Part shown: positions 15,615-52,380 of the stretch, piece by piece | How the letters are laid out: every line of letters begins with the position of its first letter | Numbering within the stretch: the first letter of the stretch is position 1 | DNA from: Clostridiales bacterium | GTDB taxonomy: Bacteria > Bacillota > Clostridia > Christensenellales > Pumilibacteraceae | Length of the DNA: 64,000 nucleotides | NCBI GenBank assembly: GCA_022511445.1 | Contig: JAFLVE010000010.1 | Location: forward strand, 201,387 to 265,386 | Reading direction: 5' to 3' | Program-made: the position numbers and the translations under genes | Notes under the pieces: model-generated | What the model saw: the letters and a program-made list of their open reading frames with translations, nothing else | Databases searched by the model: none | Told to the model about the DNA's origin: nothing

Positions 15615-16160
15615 CTACTTCTTGCCTGCGGTCTTAGCCTCTTTGCGGAGGACGACCTCGTCGCTGTAATGCAGCCCGTAGCCGTGGTACGGCTCGACGG
15701 GGCGCTTGGACTTGATTTGTGCGGCAACCTGACCGACGAACGCCTTGTTGATTCCGCTGACTACTATCTGGAGCGGATCGGGGCACGTAACGGTGATGCC
15801 TTCGGGCACCGTATATTCTACCGGCTTGCTGTATCCGATGTTCATAACAAGCTTGTTGCCCGTAACAGCGCATTTGTAACCGACGCCGGCGACGATGAGA
15901 GTCTTTTTGAACGGCTCCGTTACGCCCTTTACCATGTCGGCTATAAGCTGACGGTACAGTCCGTGATACGCGCGAGTCTGCTTAAGTTCGTTTTTGCGCT
16001 CGACGTGAACGACGCTTCCGTCAACCTTAACGTCGATATCGGGGCAGACGATTTCCTGTGTGAGCTCGCCGAGCTTGCCTTTAACCGTAACCACGTGGCC
16101 GTCAAAACTGACCGTGACGCCCGCGGGCAGGTCGATTTGTTTTTTTCCTATACGAGACAT
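15615..16160 (-). CDS. rplF: 50S ribosomal protein L6
   Basis: [37 protein letters not shown]. Confidence 0.96.
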
Positions 16161-16169
16161 ACCGCCCTC

Positions 16170-16565
16170 CTACCAAACGTAGGCGAGAACTTCCCCGCCC
16201 ACCTTCAGCTGTCTTGCCTTCTTGTCGGTCATTACACCGCGCGAGGTAGAGATTATTGCAATGCCGTACCCGCCGAGGACCTTGGGAAGATCCTCGCAGC
16301 CGCAGTAAACGCGGAGACCGGGTTTACTGATGCGCTTCAAGCTTGTAATGGCATTCTTGTTGCCGGCATACTTGAGCACGACCTTGATGTTGCTGTGACC
16401 GTTTTCTTCGACAACCTCACCCGAAGTGACGAAGCCTTCCTCGACGAGAATGTCGACAATGGACTTTTTCATCTTGGACGCAGGTATCGATACGGTTTCG
16501 TGACGCGCCGTAACGGCGTTGCGAATTCTTGTGAGCAAATCCGCGATAGGATCTGTTGTAACCAT
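16170..16565 (-). CDS. rpsH: 30S ribosomal protein S8
   Basis: [54 protein letters not shown]. Confidence 0.96.
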
Positions 16566-16579
16566 AACTTATACCCTCC

Positions 16580-16765
16580 TTACCAACTCGACTTCTTTAC
16601 GCCGGGGATTTCGCCCTTGTACGCAAGATTGCGGAAGCAAATTCTGCATATACCGTACTTTCTTAATACGGAATGCGGTCTGCCGCAGATACTGCAACGC
16701 GTGTAAGCGCGCGTCGTGTACTTGGGCACCCTTTGCTGTTTGTTTATCATCGCTTTTTTAGCCAT
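16580..16765 (-). CDS. rpsN: 30S ribosomal protein S14, zinc-binding type Z
   Basis: [38 protein letters not shown]. Confidence 0.96.
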
Positions 16766-40887: not shown

Positions 40888-41027
40888 GTTCTTTACCGAT
40901 ATTGTAGTTGTTACTTTATCTTAACTGCAATTTAACTAATTCTTGTCAAAGATTATTCTATGTTTTATACGCAAACACAACCCGCCGCATGGTGGTAACT
41001 GTTAGTCAATTAATCAATTGTGCGGCT

Positions 41028-41370
41028 TTGTCTTAGGCTCCCCTGTGTAAGGGCAGCTCCGCCGTTAAGCGATGGGAGGTTGTACGCTCCGTCCGCAACC
41101 TTCTTCGGTCGAAGTGATGTGCGTCGCGTAAAAAGCCTCCCCTGTGCAAGGGGCGCGACAGAGCTCAAGAAAACAGTCCGGTGGACTGGTTTTAGCCAAA
41201 GCGAGGCGCAATTTGTAATTGCGTCCGGGGTCTGTCACGAGGCACGAGTGACTGAGGGGTTATACACACCGCTCCGCAAATTTTTCGATCGAAATGGTCG
41301 TCGCGAAAACGGCTCCCCTGTGTAAGGGGGCTCCGCCGTTAGGCGGTGAGGGGATGTAGGCTTCGGACGA
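41028..41370 (+). repeat. composite structured intergenic repeat (short form, long form R3, short form in series)
   Basis: Three GGCTCCCCTGTG(T/C)AAGGG(G)-type hairpins; long form 41134-41258 nearly matches the 23.8-kb inverted copy. Confidence 0.85.
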
Positions 41371-41639
41371 AATGATGAGTTGGGAGGAAGTATTTTCGGT
41401 AATTCTTAATTCAAGCGCTATTACGTTTTCGCGCCGCTCATCACCCCGAGCTTGTCGGGGAATCTAGGCGCCCCCTACATAGTCGCAAAGCTAATAATTT
41501 TTTTCGTCGGCTATCTCGTTCTTCCCATTTTCTTTGCACTCCCCTTTTCGTCAGGCTTGTAATCACTTCTGTACAATTTAACATTAAATTCCTGTCCGCT
41601 GCGCGTACCGCCGATTTTTTATTTTTTATCGCACCTTAA

Positions 41640-41725
41640 AAATTCCTGATTTGCTAAACCGTCGGTTTGTTTATACGGTAGGGTATACGCAAAAACTTGT
41701 CCTTGTTGTTTTTTCTGTCTCACAG
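41640..41725 (-). repeat. bipartite element copy 1
   Basis: CTAAACCGTCGGTTTGT at 41654-41670 and CTGTCTCAC at 41715-41723. Confidence 0.75.
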
Positions 41726-41944
41726 CGCGACTTTTTTTCGGCGCCTATACTTCATTTATTCGCCCCCCCCCCGATTATAATCCGCTTCTGCATATTCGAT
41801 ATTCTCTTGTCTATACTTTTTTTATCCGTAGTATTTTCATTGCGTTTTTCCTGTTGCTTTCCCTTTTCGATGTTTTCGTGCGAAACGACAGAAAATCGGT
41901 CGTTTTTTCTTGACTCGATTTTTCAGCGCCGCTGTGCTTATTTT

Positions 41945-42033
41945 AAAAAATCCGTATTTACTAAACCGACGGTTTAGTTACACGGTGGGGTATACGCTAT
42001 TATTCCTCTTGCATGTATTTTTCTGTCTCACGC
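41945..42033 (-). repeat. bipartite element copy 2
   Basis: CTAAACCGACGGTTTAG at 41961-41977 and CTGTCTCAC at 42023-42031. Confidence 0.8.
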
Positions 42034-42213
42034 CGCCCGTATTTTTGGGTAGTTTTTAGTTCCAATCTTATTATACCCTTTCCTCGATTCGTTTTTTGTT
42101 GCACTATAACTATCTCGGCTATTACTGCAAAGAAAATCGAGTTTATTTACTAAGCCCGCAATCTGTTTAACTTCGTTTTTCTCGATCCGATTTTTACCCG
42201 CAATTTCTCTCAT
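42028..42213 (-). CDS. putative 61-aa basic small protein between element copies 2 and 3
   Basis: ATG at 42213 with AAAGGAG SD; MREIAGKNRIEKNEVKQIAGLVNKLDFLCSNSRDSYSATKNESRKGYNKIGTKNYPKIRAA; TGA stop lies in the GTGAGACAG motif. Confidence 0.35.
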   Translation of the reverse strand: MREIAGKNRIEKNEVKQIAGLVNKLDFLCSNSRDSYSATKNESRKGYNKIGTKNYPKIRAA

Positions 42214-42263
42214 AATACGCGCTCCTTTTACTTCGCTCAAATTTTACTCGCTCTGCGTAAATT

Positions 42264-42352
42264 TAAAAAATTCCTGATTTACTAAACCGTCAGTTTAGCT
42301 ATACGGTAGGGTATCCGGATATATTACTCCTACATGTATTTTTCTGTATCAG
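42264..42352 (-). repeat. bipartite element copy 3
   Basis: CTAAACCGTCAGTTTAG at 42282-42298 and CTGTATCAG at 42344-42352. Confidence 0.75.
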
Positions 42353-42376
42353 AACGCCGTTTTTTGGCAAGCAAAA

Positions 42377-42412: not shown

Positions 42413-42673
42413 TTATTCAAGTTTGTTATGTTCGCTGTCGGGATCGTCGTGCATAGCGTCGGTAACGTTCGAGCTCTCTTTTGTACTCTCGCTGTTTTCG
42501 CCGCTTTCGGTTAAACCGCCCTCATCCTTTTCCTTCTTTTTCTTTTCGAGGTGTTTGGATATAAGTAGGTATGCGGCGAGGAGTCCCACGATTAGCAACA
42601 GGAATAGCACTCCGACTATATAATACACCGGGCTGTCCGGATTATTGAACGCGTCAGACGAAATATATATCAT
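42413..42673 (-). CDS. hypothetical single-TM protein with a charged C-terminal tail
   Basis: VYYIVGVLFLLLIVGLLAAYLLI then KHLEKKKKEKDEGG. Confidence 0.6.
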   Translation of the reverse strand: MIYISSDAFNNPDSPVYYIVGVLFLLLIVGLLAAYLLISKHLEKKKKEKDEGGLTESGENSESTKESSNVTDAMHDDPDSEHNKLE

Positions 42674-42746: not shown

Positions 42747-43247
42747 TTATCTGCTGTTGTAGCTGTTGATTTCCCTTTCGGCGGCGCGGTTTAGGTCGCG
42801 TTCCTTTTTAACCTGCTTCTTTTCGTAATTCTTTTTGCCTCTTGCAAGGGCTATTTCCACTTTGACAAACCGTCCTTTAAGGTACATTTTGACCGGCACG
42901 ATGGTGTAACCCTTTTCCGCCGCCTTGCCGCAAAGCCTTTCGATTTGAGTTTTGTGCAGCAAAAGCCTCCTCGACCGCGTCGGGTCGGGAGGAAAGGCGC
43001 CCACCTTTGCGTACGGTGTAATATGGCAGTTTTTAAGCTCGAGATTGCCGTTTTCGACGTGACAAAAGCTGTCGCGCATGGACACGTCACCCTTTTTGAC
43101 AGACTTGACCTCCGAGCCCTCGAGCGCGATACCCGCTTCGAACGTCTCTTCAAAGTAATAATCGAATACCGCCTTTTTGTTGACCGCTACCACTTTGTTC
43201 TCGACTTTTTTTACTTTATTATTCTTTCTTTCCGTTTTGCTCTTCAT
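42747..43247 (-). CDS. smpB: SsrA-binding protein
   Basis: KKAVFDYYFEETFEAGIALEGSEVKSVKKGDVSMRDSFC. Confidence 0.95.
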   Translation of the reverse strand: MKSKTERKNNKVKKVENKVVAVNKKAVFDYYFEETFEAGIALEGSEVKSVKKGDVSMRDSFCHVENGNLELKNCHITPYAKVGAFPPDPTRSRRLLLHKTQIERLCGKAAEKGYTIVPVKMYLKGRFVKVEIALARGKKNYEKKQVKKERDLNRAAEREINSYNSR

Positions 43248-43253
43248 ATATAC

Positions 43254-44585
43254 CTACTTTCCCACGCAAAACCGTTCGAAAACAGAGGAAATAACCTTTT
43301 CGTCCGCCGCCTCGCCGAAAAGCTCCGTTATCGCCGAATACCCTTCGTAAAGCGCCGCGGCGACAAGCTCCAGCCCGTCTGCCTTTTTACTCTCCGCTTT
43401 TGCCGAGTTCACCGCGTCAAGGCACCGTCTTACGCAATCGAACTGCCTGTGATTGCAGATTCCGCTAACCTCTTTCGGGCAAAGATCGTAAATTCTCTCC
43501 TTTAGCGCCGTTATATTTATTTTGTACTTGGCGCTGACCTTAAGCTTTCCGTCCTCGGTCGCCGTTTGATAGTCCGTATCGGCGTCCTTCACCCCGTCGC
43601 TTTTATTGAGGACTGTTATAATCGGCTTGCCGAAATCTGGTATAATGTCCGTTTTGACGCTCTCAGTCACAAAAATTACCGCGTCCGCTTCTTTTGCCGC
43701 CGTTTTTGTGCGCTCGATTCCTATTTTTTCCACCTCATCGTGTGTGGAATCGTTTAATCCGGCTGTATCCGTAACCGTGAACTTGCGGTGTTTATATACG
43801 TAACTGCCGTCAATCGTGTCTCGAGTCGTGCCGGCAACGTCGGTCACTATCGCTCTGTCCTCGCCGAGTAGAGCGTTAAGCAGCGTGGATTTTCCCACGT
43901 TCGGCTTACCGACAAGTGCAACCTTAAATCCGTCCTTTATGATTTTTCCGCCCGCATACCCTTTTATCTCGGTTTCGAGCCGAGCCGTTATTTCATCAAG
44001 CGCACCGTAAACGTCGCCGAGCAACCTCTCGTCCGTTTCGCCGTCTTCCAATTCGTCGCTGTAATGAATTACCGCCTCGATTGTGCTTAGTGCCCTGTTA
44101 AGAAATAGTTCGACGTCTTTTAAGCTGTTTATTCCGTTATACCGAGCGTTTCCGTAGTTAAGCTGTTCGGGCGTTTCGGCGTCTATTATGTCGGCAAGGG
44201 CCTCGCACTCCGTAAGATCGAGCTTTCCGCTTTTAAACGCGCGTTCGGTAAACTCTCCGCGCTCAGCCGCTCTCGCTCCGCCGCCGATAAGCGCTTTTAT
44301 TATCGAATCTATTATAAGAGTATTCCCGTGCGGATACAACTCGACTATATCTTCTCCCGTGTACGTTTTCGGCGCTTTGAAGTACGCCGCCATCAAATTT
44401 TCGGTAAAGTCACCCGAAGTGAACACGTTGTACTTGATTTTTCCCGCCTTCAGCTTGTTCTTTAGAAACCTTTCCGCCAAGGCTTTACTGTCTTTTCCGC
44501 TCATTCTGATAACGGCAATCGCCGATTTACCGTACGGCGTCGCCAAAGCAACAATTATTCCGTTTTTTGAACATGCGGTGTTCAT
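43254..44585 (-). CDS. mnmE: tRNA modification GTPase MnmE
   Basis: [36 protein letters not shown]-terminal FERFCVGK. Confidence 0.96.
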
Positions 44586-44589
44586 AAAT

Positions 44590-44893
44590 TTTCTACCTTT
44601 TGTATATATATCGCCCGATTTTTGGTTTTACGGAAACTTTTTTCTTAAAAAGCTACTTTACTTTTTTCCTTATCAAATATGTAATGTTTATACCTTTCGG
44701 TTATTTACAATTGTTTGAACACGGTTTATATACTTTACGCACATGGATAATTTTATAACTATTTTTACCTTTTGTGCTTTTAGTTGCGGTAAACTACCGT
44801 ATTTTGTTGTCCTCGCCTGTTATACACATTTATACACCGTCTATTATATATTGCTTTTATCATATAAAATATATAATATAACACAATAAGAAG
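44590..44893. other. AT-rich spacer with DnaA-box-like sites; possible origin-associated region
   Basis: TTATACACA (44820-44828, matches TTATNCACA), TTATACACC (44830-44838), TTATTTACA (44701-44709), next to an AT-only-like run at 44840-44885. Confidence 0.3.
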
Positions 44894-45544
44894 CTATTTT
44901 GCGTATACCAGTATCCTTCTTTTTATATCCGTCTCCGGAAGAACGTAGTCTAATTGCTTAATTAGCTTTGTTTCAGTTTTTTGCATAGTTTGTGATTTTG
45001 CCGGGTTGTCGTTTTGAGTTCGGTATAAAATAACCAAACCGCCTTTTTTTGCAAGCGGCGCGCACAGAGTAAGAGCCTTGTCGACGTCGGCGAGTGCGCG
45101 GGCGCAAACGGTGTTGTAAGATTTGTGAAGCTTGACGAGTTCCTCGGACCGCGCGTATTCCGCTTTTACGTTTTTCATGCCGAGCTCGGTTATGCAGCGT
45201 TGAATGAGAAGCAGTTTTTTTCCTACACTGTCCAGTCCCGTTATGTTAAGTTCGGTCGTGAGGGCGAGAGGTAAAGTGGGAAAACCACCGCCGCATCCCA
45301 CGTCGCAAACCGTACCTTTGAATAGATCGTACGGATAAATGCTGTCGAGGTAGTGCTTAATGTAAATGTCGTCGATCGTTTTAAGCGCCGAGATGTTTAC
45401 TACGGAATTAACCTGAAAGTATAAATCCGTAATTTTGTCGAAGTCGTCTATCAGTTCGGGTTTTCTTACTTTATCGGTCAAGAAGTTAAGTAGGATTTTT
45501 CGGCCGCGCGACGATTCTATTTGGTTTTTGAGCTGTTCGTCCAT
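44894..45544 (-). CDS. rsmG: 16S rRNA (guanine527-N7)-methyltransferase
   Basis: VCDVGCGGGFPTLPLAL, LDSVGKKLLLIQRC, VCARALADVDKAL. Confidence 0.92.
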   Translation of the reverse strand: MDEQLKNQIESSRGRKILLNFLTDKVRKPELIDDFDKITDLYFQVNSVVNISALKTIDDIYIKHYLDSIYPYDLFKGTVCDVGCGGGFPTLPLALTTELNITGLDSVGKKLLLIQRCITELGMKNVKAEYARSEELVKLHKSYNTVCARALADVDKALTLCAPLAKKGGLVILYRTQNDNPAKSQTMQKTETKLIKQLDYVLPETDIKRRILVYAK

Positions 45545-45552
45545 CTTTCACC

Positions 45553-46320
45553 TTAGGTTGACTCGTAGTTGTTAAACATAAATCTCAGAATTCTTTCCGC
45601 GGCGCTGCCTTGATCTATTATTTTAATGACTTTTCCTATTATTTTGTTTTTCGGCCGCGTTCCGTAATTTCGTGAGTCGCTCGAGTAGTTTCTGTTGTCA
45701 CCGAGAAAAAAGATTTCTTCTTTGGGAACGGTAGTGCAGTTTTTAGCTATTTCGGTCTGTAATGCCGCCTTGTCCGAGTCGGAGTAAGCCTCGTTCATAT
45801 CGATTTCGGTTATTCTCTGTTCGGATTTGTAGGTTATTACCGATATTTTTTTGCGTAGTGAGGAATCGGGATCTTCCACCCACTTCATTTTTTCTAAGAT
45901 GTACGGCTCGTTCATCAGCTTGAACTTCGATTGTCCGACTTCGCATATATACATATCCACATATTGTCCGTATTGGCTTTTTACAAACAGAATTTTGTCG
46001 CCTTCGAGCCCAATTACGCGTTTTATGAGGATATGTGCCTCTTCCTCTTTGTCGTCATCGTCGTCGGTCGGAACGTCTATCGTTATTATGTCGCCGCGGT
46101 TGAGCGTGTAGTACCGCCTCTGAAGTAGCACGCACTGTCCCGATTCGATTGTGTTAAGCATGCTGTTACCCTTAATGGGCGAAAAGGAATACATGTAATA
46201 GAAAAAGACGAGTCCCGAAAATAATAAAACAAACCCCAAAAGTACGATATCAAACACAATCGGGGTTTTGTTTTTTTGTCTATCGAGGAGAGCGTCGCCG
46301 TCTTCTATTCCTACGTTCAT
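45553..46320 (-). CDS. lepB: type I signal peptidase
   Basis: GNSMLNTIESGQCVLL (Ser), ILIKRVIGLEGD (Lys), FFLGDNRNYSSDSRNYG. Confidence 0.88.
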   Translation of the reverse strand: MNVGIEDGDALLDRQKNKTPIVFDIVLLGFVLLFSGLVFFYYMYSFSPIKGNSMLNTIESGQCVLLQRRYYTLNRGDIITIDVPTDDDDDKEEEAHILIKRVIGLEGDKILFVKSQYGQYVDMYICEVGQSKFKLMNEPYILEKMKWVEDPDSSLRKKISVITYKSEQRITEIDMNEAYSDSDKAALQTEIAKNCTTVPKEEIFFLGDNRNYSSDSRNYGTRPKNKIIGKVIKIIDQGSAAERILRFMFNNYEST

Positions 46321-46321
46321 G

Positions 46322-47974
46322 CTACACCCACAGCATGGAGCTTATTATAAATTCTTTTTCCGAAGTAAATTTAATAAATACCGCTTTGGAGAAGTTTTGC
46401 AAAATACTGCCGTTAACGCTCTTGAAATCGGTATTGGAAAGTGTAAATTTATGCCAGTCGTTGGAGTTTGTTATTGTAACGTTTGTTTTATATGTTTCTT
46501 TTCCGTCGCTTAAAACAATCGTTACAGCCTGCGGTTCGCCGCATGCGATAATTTGTAGGAGCGAGTCGTTATTTGCCGTATAAAGCAAATCTCCCAGCTT
46601 AAACGATATAAGCGTTTTGGAATCGCTCGAAACTCCCTGTATTTCGTACGGTCCCGTCTTAATTGATATGTTTCCGCCGTCCGAGCTTGTCCAAACGTCT
46701 TTGCCCGAATTTCCGTCGAAAATAAGCTTTTGCTTGAGCATCGGCGACGCCGTTATGTTCAGCGATTTGGGAACGACCGTTATCATGGCGCTCGAGGACA
46801 CGACGCCGTTTTTGTCGGTCAGATTGACGAAAGCGTACGTAGGCCGCGTGTCTTGGATAACGCTTACCCTTGCCATGTACTCCCCTCCGCCGAGGCTTAT
46901 AAGTGGAACGCCAGTCCAGTTTCTGTACCTGGAATCGTCTATACCGTATGCCGCAAACAGCTCAACCTTGCCGCCGTCGCCGGAATTGTCCGCTTTTTCG
47001 TTAGAAACGATATTAAAATATAACGAATTTTCGGAGTTGGTTGCCTTTACTTGCGGTCTCGGAACGTCAACGTTGCCTTTGGCGCTATCGTGGAAATACG
47101 TCGAAACCTGATCGTATGTCGCTTTTATTCCGCTTTTAAATGAGCGCTCGCATATTCTTAAGCATTTAAGCGAGGCCGTGAGCGTCGCAAGCTCGGACAT
47201 GTCGTCAAACGAACGATCCTCGTCGTTGGTCGAGACGCACATAAGCAGAGGAACTTTTGTCGCGGCTGCGTACGAATGGTTGTCGAGCGCGGCGCGGTAG
47301 TTGATTAATGGATTGCCGGTACCGCTCACCTTGGGCAGTACGTTTAGCGACGTGGCGGCGGCTTTAAGCCCGTCGTCGAACGCGCACATTTTATATACGG
47401 TGCTTCCGCCCAATCCAATGCCCCAGGCGAATATATTCTTTTCGGCGTACTTATCCTTAAGAAGCTTTACGGCGCGTCTTGCCATACACGCCCAGGCAAA
47501 CCAACGGCTGTTTAGCGTGTCGTCGGGCGCCACAAACTCTGTCGCCCCGATGCAGTTGCACTCTTCGAGCGATTTGGGATATATCGTATAGCGCGAGTCG
47601 TCCTTGTTTTTTCCGCTGTAATCGAGCACCGCAACGGTAAAGCCGCGCTCGTACAATTTAAGTGCAGGCTCCTCGTTCCCGTCGGTATCGGGCAAAAATA
47701 GGACAATTCCGTCCGATTTTTCATTTTCGTATATCTTGAGATAGGTACGAACCTTGCCGTCTAAGGTAGTATACCCGTCGAAATAGTACTCGCGTACTTT
47801 CTTTCCGTCTATTTGTTTTTCCGACAGCGCGTAAGGATTGAGCGGTAATGCCGTAACCTCATAATCCTTCCATAAGCTGTTAATTCCCGTAATTTCCAAG
47901 CTGACGCCCCTGTTTACCGAATTTTCCCAATTATATACCTTATTTTTGTATTTGTCAAGCATTGCATAACCCAT
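46322..47974 (-). CDS. alpha/beta-hydrolase-fold protein with an apparently substituted nucleophile elbow
   Basis: FAWGIGLGGSTVYKMCAFD at the GxSxG position; C-terminal beta-rich region. Confidence 0.6.
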   Translation of the reverse strand: MGYAMLDKYKNKVYNWENSVNRGVSLEITGINSLWKDYEVTALPLNPYALSEKQIDGKKVREYYFDGYTTLDGKVRTYLKIYENEKSDGIVLFLPDTDGNEEPALKLYERGFTVAVLDYSGKNKDDSRYTIYPKSLEECNCIGATEFVAPDDTLNSRWFAWACMARRAVKLLKDKYAEKNIFAWGIGLGGSTVYKMCAFDDGLKAAATSLNVLPKVSGTGNPLINYRAALDNHSYAAATKVPLLMCVSTNDEDRSFDDMSELATLTASLKCLRICERSFKSGIKATYDQVSTYFHDSAKGNVDVPRPQVKATNSENSLYFNIVSNEKADNSGDGGKVELFAAYGIDDSRYRNWTGVPLISLGGGEYMARVSVIQDTRPTYAFVNLTDKNGVVSSSAMITVVPKSLNITASPMLKQKLIFDGNSGKDVWTSSDGGNISIKTGPYEIQGVSSDSKTLISFKLGDLLYTANNDSLLQIIACGEPQAVTIVLSDGKETYKTNVTITNSNDWHKFTLSNTDFKSVNGSILQNFSKAVFIKFTSEKEFIISSMLWV

Positions 47975-48138: not shown

Positions 48139-49026
48139 ATGTCGGCTGTAAGAAAAGGTGGATTGGGTAAAGGGCTCGGCGCTCTTCTCAGCGATATCGA
48201 AAACGAATCGTCCTACGGAGCGAGCGGCGACGGCGCGGTAAACGAGCTTGCTGTTTCGGATATAGATCCCAATATAGATCAGCCTCGAAAGGAGTTTGAC
48301 GACGACGCGCTTTCCGCCCTCATTGAGAGTATTAAAACGCACGGCGTAATTACCCCGCTTGTCGTTACACCCAAGCCGGACGGCAGATATTTGATTATCG
48401 CCGGAGAACGCCGCTACCGCGCCGCGAAAGCTGCCGGACTTACTACTGTGCCTGTATGTGTACGCGACTGCACCCCCGTTCAAATAGACGAGCTCTCTTT
48501 GATAGAAAACATTCAGCGCGAGGACCTCAACCCTATGGAAGTAGCGCAGGCGATTAAAAAGCTTATGGACGACTACGGTTATACGCAGGAGCGCGCCGCA
48601 GAACGTATCGGTAAGGCTCGCCCCACCGTCGCCAACCTTTTAAGGCTTTTGGAGCTTGACGAGTCCGTACAAAAGCTTGTTTCCTCCGGCAGACTTTCCG
48701 CAGGACACGCGCGTTGCCTTGTCGTTATATCCGATTCCGCCAAACAGCTTGAGCTTGCCGAAAAGGGCTGCGACGACAAAATGAGCGTGCGCGAGTTTGA
48801 AAAGCTTGTTAAAAACACCAAAAATCCCCAAAAACAGAAGCCCGCTCCGCAAATAGGGCTTGAGCTAAAGGACATGATTGTCCGCATGCAGCGCACCTTC
48901 GGAACTAAGGTCAGCTTGCTCGGCAACGACAATAAAGGTCGCATTTTTATCGATTATTACAACCCCGACGACCTCGCCCGCATAGAAAGCATGCTCTCCT
49001 TCCTTGAAAACAACTACAACAAATAA
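48139..49026 (+). CDS. parB: ParB/Spo0J-family chromosome partitioning protein
   Basis: KGGLGKGLGALLSD, RYLIIAGERRYRAAKAAGL, LIENIQREDLNPMEVAQAI. Confidence 0.95.
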   Translation: MSAVRKGGLGKGLGALLSDIENESSYGASGDGAVNELAVSDIDPNIDQPRKEFDDDALSALIESIKTHGVITPLVVTPKPDGRYLIIAGERRYRAAKAAGLTTVPVCVRDCTPVQIDELSLIENIQREDLNPMEVAQAIKKLMDDYGYTQERAAERIGKARPTVANLLRLLELDESVQKLVSSGRLSAGHARCLVVISDSAKQLELAEKGCDDKMSVREFEKLVKNTKNPQKQKPAPQIGLELKDMIVRMQRTFGTKVSLLGNDNKGRIFIDYYNPDDLARIESMLSFLENNYNK

Positions 49027-49028
49027 AT

Positions 49029-49044
49029 TGTTCCACATGGAACA
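49029..49044. promoter_or_regulatory. parS-like site 1
   Basis: TGTTCCACATGGAACA vs consensus TGTTNCACGTGNAACA (one centre substitution). Confidence 0.75.
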
Positions 49045-49148: not shown

Positions 49149-49164
49149 TGTTCCACATGAAACA
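49149..49164. promoter_or_regulatory. parS-like site 2
   Basis: TGTTCCACATGAAACA. Confidence 0.7.
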
Positions 49165-49251: not shown

Positions 49252-50511
49252 TTACTTCTTTCGCCCTATGTCTATATTGTCCTCTTTGCGGTTGCGGAGC
49301 GCTTTTACGGGATGCTCGGAAACGGTATAGCGGTAGTCCTCGCCGAACTCGGAAATATAAGAGTCAATCACCTTATGGCTTGCGACGGAAGACGGGTTTT
49401 TGTTAACCGCGTTGTTATATCTGAAATACTCGTAATTGTCGGGCACGTTTGTAATATCGGTGTACTCTTCCAAAACAGCGGTGTTTGTAATGGTATTTTT
49501 AAGAATGTTGCGGATATAGTTTTTGTTCTTTTCGTAGTTGTCGTTAAATGTTAAGAGCTTGGGGAATTCTCCGTCGGGGATAACCTGAGCCCACTCTTTC
49601 TTCTCGTACTTTTGGAGAAGCTCTACGGCGTAGTGCAAGTGTGACAGCTCCTGCTCGAAATGGTCGGTCCAAATCTTTTTAGCGACGTCGTTTGTTTCCT
49701 CGGTCATTGCGGAGTAGTAAAGATAACACTCGGCGTACTCGTGCATGAGCAAGCATTCGAGCGGGGTTGTCGTCGCGTCCATAAGCGACTCGTATTGGGT
49801 AACGTGCTGTTCCTCGATCATTCCTACTTCGAGGAAGAGCTTTCTTCCTATATCGGACGACGGATAGAAAGTGCCGAGATTCATATAAAAGTTCATTGTT
49901 TGCTGTTCGGCGGCTGTGATTATCATTGTGTTAAGCTTGGTGGAAAGAGGCGAGCTTGGCGGGATTGCGCGACGAACGTCGTCAAACGGATGACGGTGTT
50001 CGGCAATCGTCGGTCTGCCCGGCATAATCTCGGTGTAGGAGCCGACGAGCTTTTCGCCCGCAACACCCTGCTCCATTTCGAGAAGATCGCTGAAGCGGTA
50101 CAGGTGGTCGAAGTCCTCGAGGAGAGCAAAGTCGAGGGCGGCCTTGACGTACTTATTCTTTTCGTTCTGGGCGAGAATGGCGGTAAGGTCGACGGCAAGC
50201 TGCTCGTAGGAGATAGTTGTTTCGAGCATAGACTCGTCTTTAGGCTTAAAGAACGAAATGCGTTTTTGTTGTTGCTGTTCCATTCGGCGTAGAAGTCCGA
50301 CGTCGCGCCGCAGGTCGTTGTTGGTTGTGTTTCGAACGAGATTATGCATAAACCAACATTGCTCAAACTCGGTGCCGTTAAGGAGAATGGTACGGACCTT
50401 TGTATAAGCGTCCGTGTCGTGTTTGTGGTAAGCGGTCGGGTAAAGCTTCTTCCAATCGGAAGTACACCTTTCGATAGAGTACGATTTTTCTTTGAACGGA
50501 TTCATGTTCAC
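49252..50511 (-). CDS. large ferritin-like-fold (putative diiron) protein
   Basis: Helices with ALLEDFDH, GMIEEQH, HEYAECY and HFEQELSHLH spaced like a four-helix metal-binding bundle. Confidence 0.55.
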   Translation of the reverse strand: MNMNPFKEKSYSIERCTSDWKKLYPTAYHKHDTDAYTKVRTILLNGTEFEQCWFMHNLVRNTTNNDLRRDVGLLRRMEQQQQKRISFFKPKDESMLETTISYEQLAVDLTAILAQNEKNKYVKAALDFALLEDFDHLYRFSDLLEMEQGVAGEKLVGSYTEIMPGRPTIAEHRHPFDDVRRAIPPSSPLSTKLNTMIITAAEQQTMNFYMNLGTFYPSSDIGRKLFLEVGMIEEQHVTQYESLMDATTTPLECLLMHEYAECYLYYSAMTEETNDVAKKIWTDHFEQELSHLHYAVELLQKYEKKEWAQVIPDGEFPKLLTFNDNYEKNKNYIRNILKNTITNTAVLEEYTDITNVPDNYEYFRYNNAVNKNPSSVASHKVIDSYISEFGEDYRYTVSEHPVKALRNRKEDNIDIGRKK

Positions 50512-50679
50512 CTCCGTAACAGATTATTTCCAAGACGAAATAAATTAAACATCCAACCGCAACGAATAAAGTTATAAAACAATAATATTATATTATAATA
50601 GTTATTTAAGAATAACGAATAAAAAACATGGAGGATTGGAGCGGCTGAAAACATTTTTTTGGGGGAAAAGTGAGACGTT

Positions 50680-50749
50680 GTGAGACAGAATTTTTTTGAA
50701 ATCGCAAAATTTTTCGGGCGCCCGACGTCACGCTAAACCGACGGTTTAG
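50680..50749 (+). repeat. bipartite element copy 4 (opposite orientation to copies 1-3)
   Basis: GTGAGACAG at 50680-50688 and CTAAACCGACGGTTTAG at 50733-50749. Confidence 0.75.
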
Positions 50750-50980
50750 AAAATCAAGATTTGAGCCACCCAAACGCAGAATGAACGAAGGGGTTGCGGC
50801 GCGGCGTGAAACAGAATATTATGTAAAACCGCATAAAAACGAGAGGAAAAAAATACAAAGGGGTATAGAGGGAAATAAATAAGCAAAAGCTATAATCAAC
50901 AAACACAAAGCCGATTTTGAAAGCGATAACGAAGTAGCAAAAATGAGGCGGAGGTTTGAATAAAGAGGGAGGTGAAAAAA

Positions 50981-51918: not shown

Positions 51919-52104
51919 GGCGATTGCGATAGTAGCGATTAACCCCTTTCGACGGATCACACCTCGCCGCTACTTTCCTCCGCGAGCGTTAATATAAATG
52001 TCCTGTGGACATTTTTTAGTGAGCGCCGAGCTAGGGATCGAGCGGTGCTCAAGCGTAGGCGAGAGAAACGCTTTGCGTGAAAAGCGGACGGCAAGTGCGG
52101 CTTC

Positions 52105-52380
52105 GCCTTAGGCTCCCATGTGTAAGGGGTGCGACGCGTAAAGCAAAGACTGTCTGTAGCTAAAACGACCAAGCTGTACTTGCGACACGGAGCTGTCACG
52201 AGGCACGAGTGACGGAGGGGCTGTAAGCTACGCGCTAACGCGTTTCGGTTAAAATGATGATCGGGGCGAAATTAATTTCGGCAATGCTTTGATTAAACGT
52301 TAATGCTTATATAACATTACCCCGAGCGTTTTATGCCCACACGAGGTGTGCGGTCGATCCGCCGCAAGATAGAAACCGCT
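52105..52380 (+). repeat. composite structured intergenic repeat (copy R4 plus downstream modules)
   Basis: GGCTCCCATGTGTAAGGGGTGCGAC...TAGCTAAAACGA...CTGTCACGAGGCACGAGTGAC..., then GCTACGCGCTAACGCGTTTCGGTTAAAATGATG... shared with 53.3 kb. Confidence 0.8.

Follow-up and report, generated by a model that had tools for sequence, protein, structure and literature searches.

The window, that is, the entire 64-kb stretch of DNA analyzed here, comes from a genome of the genus Anaerocaecibacter (family Pumilibacteraceae), which was identified via A. muris. It contains a segment that carries the likely replication origin, parB and a cluster of parS sites and is bordered on both sides by copies of a ~90-bp element. 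These copies are the repeats noticed in the original prediction, which missed that they flank oriC and parS.

The first housekeeping gene within the segment is smpB (42747..43247, minus strand; Pfam SmpB), followed by mnmE (43254..44585, minus), rsmG (44894..45544, minus), the signal peptidase gene lepB (45553..46320, minus), a gene for a conserved 550-aa protein (46322..47974, minus) that appears hydrolase-like by eye and has no family match, parB (48139..49026, plus) and, as the last gene, orf419 (49252..50511, minus). The same genes occupy the 9 to 13 kb between the borders in 19 genomes. The orf419 product is ferritin-like by eye, has no match among Pfam or NCBIfam families and is ~80% identical across the genus, a level of conservation above that of mnmE. 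The small membrane-anchored protein (by eye) encoded by orf86 (42413..42673, minus) is inside or outside the inverted part of the locus depending on the species. No parA was seen beside parB (48139-49026), and the ParB protein encoded in the window scored 213 bits against the Noc model, with a cut-off of 315; in G017 (L045:6624-7412), parB is reversed relative to its neighbors, unlike in the other 18 genomes.

The origin was located using relaxed DnaA boxes and GC skew; no clusters of the canonical TTATCCACA were detected in the window, and the dnaA surroundings and the larger contigs had none either. The gap between mnmE and rsmG (44586..44893) is, on sequence evidence, likely to be oriC because it is AT-rich, contains DnaA-box-like sites in conserved positions and has an AT-rich, trio-like 3' end. 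Across the genus, this gap is ~310-370 bp long, with a GC content of 23-35%, and both its length and the positions of the DnaA boxes are maintained; the cumulative GC-skew minimum lies inside the segment in 19 of the 19 genomes. Given that the gap has the features of oriC, the element itself was rejected as a candidate origin. The dnaA gene is found on contigs other than those with the oriC-like region in this genus, and the DNA-binding domain of its product looks conserved; by eye, dnaA adjoins an rsmI-like methyltransferase gene (L077, L126-L144).

Two parS sites, TGTTCCACATGGAACA (49029..49044) and TGTTCCACATGAAACA (49149..49164), are present in the window. In a genome-wide search, every genome had its exact parS sequences confined to the segment, and with up to one mismatch allowed, there were 51 sites inside the segment compared to none in 578 kb of flanks. 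At the exact sites in G000 and G018, the center is CATG rather than CGTG. On the smpB side, the element copies lie at 2-5 kb from oriC, and on the opposite side at 6-9 kb. Neither oriC nor parS is centered between the borders, which counts against the border role proposed below. Similarly to parS, the element contains palindromic, origin-proximal sites, but its sequence is unrelated (CTAAACCGNCGGTTTAG, not TGTTNCACGTGNAACA-like), it is bipartite and asymmetric, and its place is at the borders, not next to parB, whereas the true, canonical parS are inside the segment.

Anatomy and distribution of the element

Copy 1 (41639..41730, plus strand; palindrome 41654-41670, tail CTGTCTCAC from 41715), copy 2 (41946..42037, plus; palindrome 41961-41977, tail CTGTCTCAC from 42023) and copy 3 (42267..42358, plus; palindrome 42282-42298), in which CTGTATCAG replaces CTGTCTCAC, lie at one border, and the inverted copy 4 (50673..50764, minus; palindrome 50733-50749, tail 50680-50688) lies at the far border. 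The original prediction of four palindromes, starting at 41654, 41961, 42282 and 50733, each with a partner motif 61-62 nt away, holds throughout, with start-to-start distances of 61, 62, 62 and 61 nt in copies 1 to 4, respectively. The placement of copy 4 on the opposite strand is corroborated by its conserved 5' flank, and the divergence of its interior is evident from the 44-nt alignments (13-19 identical positions to copies 1-3, compared to 31-33 within copies 1-3). The window contains exactly four palindromes at no more than 3 mismatches (2, 0, 1 and 0 mismatches in copies 1 to 4) against 0.42 expected, and none of 100 shuffled sequences reached four; exact CTGTCTCAC occurs at three sites (41715, 42023 and, on the minus strand, 50680), each at a copy of the element.

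Copies from related genomes define the ~90-bp bipartite unit as AAAATCTTGATTTACTAAACCGNCGGTTTAGTnnnACGGTAGGGTATnCGAAAA, followed by a pyrimidine-rich middle and then the tail TTCnGTCTgAgAaCGCC. The predicted bipartite unit is thus real but was drawn too short, as the conserved region begins ~15 nt before the palindrome, on its 5' side, and continues for ~15 nt past the start of the tail. The 17-bp palindrome is near-perfect, with a one-base center; its arms are near-invariant and the rest of the element is variable, CTAAACC and GTTT being invariant, and the center base free, in 58 copies. An alignment of 52 copies from 18 genomes is almost gap-free, in agreement with the original proposal that both ends are constrained at a fixed spacing. 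Because the unit is asymmetric, each copy has a direction.

The palindrome can form a 7-bp hairpin, and a processed RNA was among the roles considered originally. However, there was no compensatory change in any of the 7 pairs across 52 sequences (covariation term of +0.08), folding was no better than that of shuffled sequences (z of -0.3 to -1.4, DNA parameters), and the elements had no Rfam match; that the element encodes a small structured RNA is therefore highly improbable.

The tails are more similar within genomes than between genomes (0.533 compared to 0.439), and when all variable columns are considered, none of 2000 permutations reached the observed within-genome likeness. The pattern suits a shared, evolving, trans-acting binding protein; gene conversion or phylogeny could be another source of the similarity. 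A palindrome is typical of the sites of dimeric regulators, and in many aligned copies, GGGTAT following GTTTAG resembles a sigma-B-type promoter, so the copies could be operators of a transcription factor that acts on the neighboring genes. Yet, copies 1-3 in the window lie between convergent gene ends, the adjoining genes differ between species and between the two sides, with no fixed place upstream of a conserved gene, and Pfam detects no adjacent regulator. Furthermore, GGGTAT is lost in both copies of G001, both copies of G003 and copy 4 of the window, and the 10-nt spacing between GTTTAG and GGGTAT is short for sigma-B. Thus, the operator array envisaged at first appears improbable.

The element is carried by 19 of the 20 Anaerocaecibacter genomes searched; the only genome that lacks it, G009, is a 76%-complete assembly in which a search with the orf419 protein was also empty. 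About 60 full-length copies were identified, all at one place, with one to three copies per side of the origin segment, and every strong genome-wide match to the element model falls at the segment borders in the 19 of 19 genomes that have the segment; the cultured species A. muris (G016) has four copies. In the search for further copies, proposed in the original prediction, none were found elsewhere in the 1.86-Mb genome at no more than 2 mismatches, and the element is present across the congeneric genomes. Beyond the genus, the sequence model had no matches in 54 genomes from 17 other genera of the family, under stricter filters that can lose weak matches; a search for the exact core pattern among 84,980 GTDB species retrieved only contigs already known from this genus, and the element was absent from the viral contigs searched. 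Other genera of the family retain much of the gene order (smpB-mnmE-rsmG and, in part, lepB and the 550-aa protein gene) without the element, and the mnmE locus in eight sister-genus genomes contained no analogous inverted elements, only unrelated or dispersed-looking repeats. Because the element is confined to one place rather than present at several unrelated sites, a transposable element or MITE was rejected as its identity. With respect to the ends of a small mobile element, as initially suggested, the copies never occur elsewhere and the DNA between them is the origin segment with its housekeeping genes, but opposing copies do bound a segment that inverts.

Orientation of the copies and inversion of the segment

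Every copy points into the segment, as determined from the 5' flank and the inner motif. The copies are related by descent, so their orientations are not independent trials, and the inward orientation is also preserved by descent combined with inversion between copies, and hence is not independent proof of a directional function. The fixed orientation relative to oriC on both arms is what would be expected of a polar, Ter/Tus-like replication-fork barrier near the origin. We regard such a barrier as quite improbable because a constitutive block to outgoing forks 2-9 kb from oriC would be harmful, so that the barrier would have to be conditional.

The outer flanks show that the segment occurs in both orientations in different species. 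In G007, G016 and G002, the segment is enclosed by block A, which comprises the window genes at 7.5-23 kb, and block B, which holds dnaB/dnaC-like genes; in G002, it is reversed compared to G007 and G016, with the flanking blocks retained. In G010, block A is beside orf419. The flip in G002 carried orf86 along, whereas that in G006 and G010 left orf86 with the flank (between two element copies in G010), indicating that different element-bearing gaps were used. In G001 and G003, orf86 is outside the segment, beside orf419, unlike in G012. In a tree built from a concatenation of six proteins, G002 is sister to G016 (support of 0.90), and the G006/G010 and G001/G003 clades are each supported at 1.0. 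Together, the gene order and the tree indicate at least three inversions of the segment, the placement of the third of these depending on orf86 alone. This comparison was performed at the species level, with one assembly per species. The breakpoints fall in the element-bearing intergenic gaps, with different nested copies used; their resolution is that of an intergenic gap rather than a base or the element itself because the intergenic DNA is too diverged for base-level mapping.

Other repeats are also present near the borders. A family of GGCTCCCCTGTGTAAGGGG-type repeats, possibly dispersed intergenic repeats, lies just outside both borders in the window (41020-41400 and 52095-52225), and A. 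muris has inverted copies of a ~200-bp intergenic repeat outside both borders (L044:3271-3474 and 15722-16762). The latter was rejected as a general mediator of the inversions because it is dispersed genome-wide (about 63 matches) and because, in the self-comparison of G002, the element is the only inverted repeat.

In invertible systems of the Hin/Fim and shufflon types, inverted repeats bound the flipping segment, and nested copies give alternative flips. The origin segment is similar in both respects: opposing element copies are always inverted, both orientations are found, and the recurrent inversion is bounded by element-bearing gaps that involve different nested pairs. The segment could accordingly be viewed as a phase-variable cassette that is inverted by a dedicated recombinase acting on the element as a site-specific recombination site. 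This is unlikely, for several reasons. No dedicated recombinase, nearby or universal, was recognized for the segment. Just one tyrosine recombinase is shared by all 7 genomes examined; it resembles a single housekeeping Xer-type enzyme and is the sole tyrosine recombinase of G017. The serine recombinases differ in both number and length. The near-perfect 17-bp palindrome with its one-base center does not resemble an asymmetric core for strand exchange. In several assemblies, both borders are read through in a single orientation, and the inversions on the species-level tree are few. Unlike in the Hin/Fim and shufflon systems, the flips are slow and at the level of species, and the flipping segment is the origin itself. 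The common tyrosine recombinase is ~362-377 aa long in G001, G002, G007, G010, G015, G016 and G017, and a single-Xer system is possible. The inversions may have arisen through this housekeeping Xer-type enzyme or by exchange that RecA mediates via the 70-90 bp of homology.

Origin-symmetric inversions are common in bacteria and are sometimes mediated by repeats at the breakpoints (PMC9584773). The inversions described here are likewise located around oriC, as the inverted segment spans both the GC-skew minimum and the oriC-like gap, but they flip an oriC-parS segment of 9-13 kb whose borders carry a dedicated, conserved repeat, whereas the survey required inversions of at least 50 kb. Since origin-centered inversions, some with breakpoint repeats, are the commonest bacterial rearrangement (PMC9584773), the element copies might be functionless relics of an ancestral inverted duplication and the inversions ordinary origin-symmetric ones. 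This appears very unlikely given that the genus is divergent and the flanking intergenic DNA unalignable between most of its species, while the palindrome arms are near-invariant in 58 copies.

A putative border of the origin domain

The explanation we favor, to which we assign about an even chance, is that the element is a directional, protein-bound site bordering the segment with oriC, parB and parS, and that opposing copies provide the crossover points for rare inversions. The palindrome (17-19 bp) is probably bound by a dimeric protein that would make further contacts with ACGGTAGGGTAT and, at a distance of ~60 bp, with the tail. Each border of the segment with oriC, parB and the parS cluster would then be marked by one to three inward-facing copies. 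The most likely role of the element would be that of a border of the origin and centromere domain, for example, by limiting or capturing ParB, SMC or replication forks that leave this domain. Being the recurrent inverted repeats on either side of the origin, opposing copies would in addition provide the sites of crossover in rare inversions of the entire segment; such inversions would be tolerated, as they barely alter the distance and direction of genes relative to oriC.

A more specific version would make the element a bacterial convergent boundary, in which paired inward-facing sites, through a putative protein, bracket the zone of ParB and SMC loading and halt or anchor the spread of ParB, or extrusion by SMC, out of the origin; by analogy, the paired copies would resemble convergent CTCF sites around a loop. 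We consider this version doubtful.

Among chromosomal protein-binding motifs, Noc, RacA, matS, KOPS and Ter sites have a regional or directional bias, and are short and mostly present in many copies. The orientation of KOPS is also described in PMC2680272. The element differs from all of these motifs in being ~90 bp long, confined to one genus and present in 2-4 copies per genome, which occur only at the borders on either side of the origin segment. No comparable element was described in the part of the literature that was searched, and the pattern suggests that the borders of the origin region are marked in a way not described before.

The segment is an example of an origin region that inverts repeatedly without being lost. 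The element also offers a defined site at which to address the existence of directional borders for ParB, SMC or replication in bacteria, a question that is testable in the cultured A. muris given its four copies. The genus-wide presence of inward-facing copies confined to the oriC-parS borders points to a protein that delimits a bacterial origin domain.
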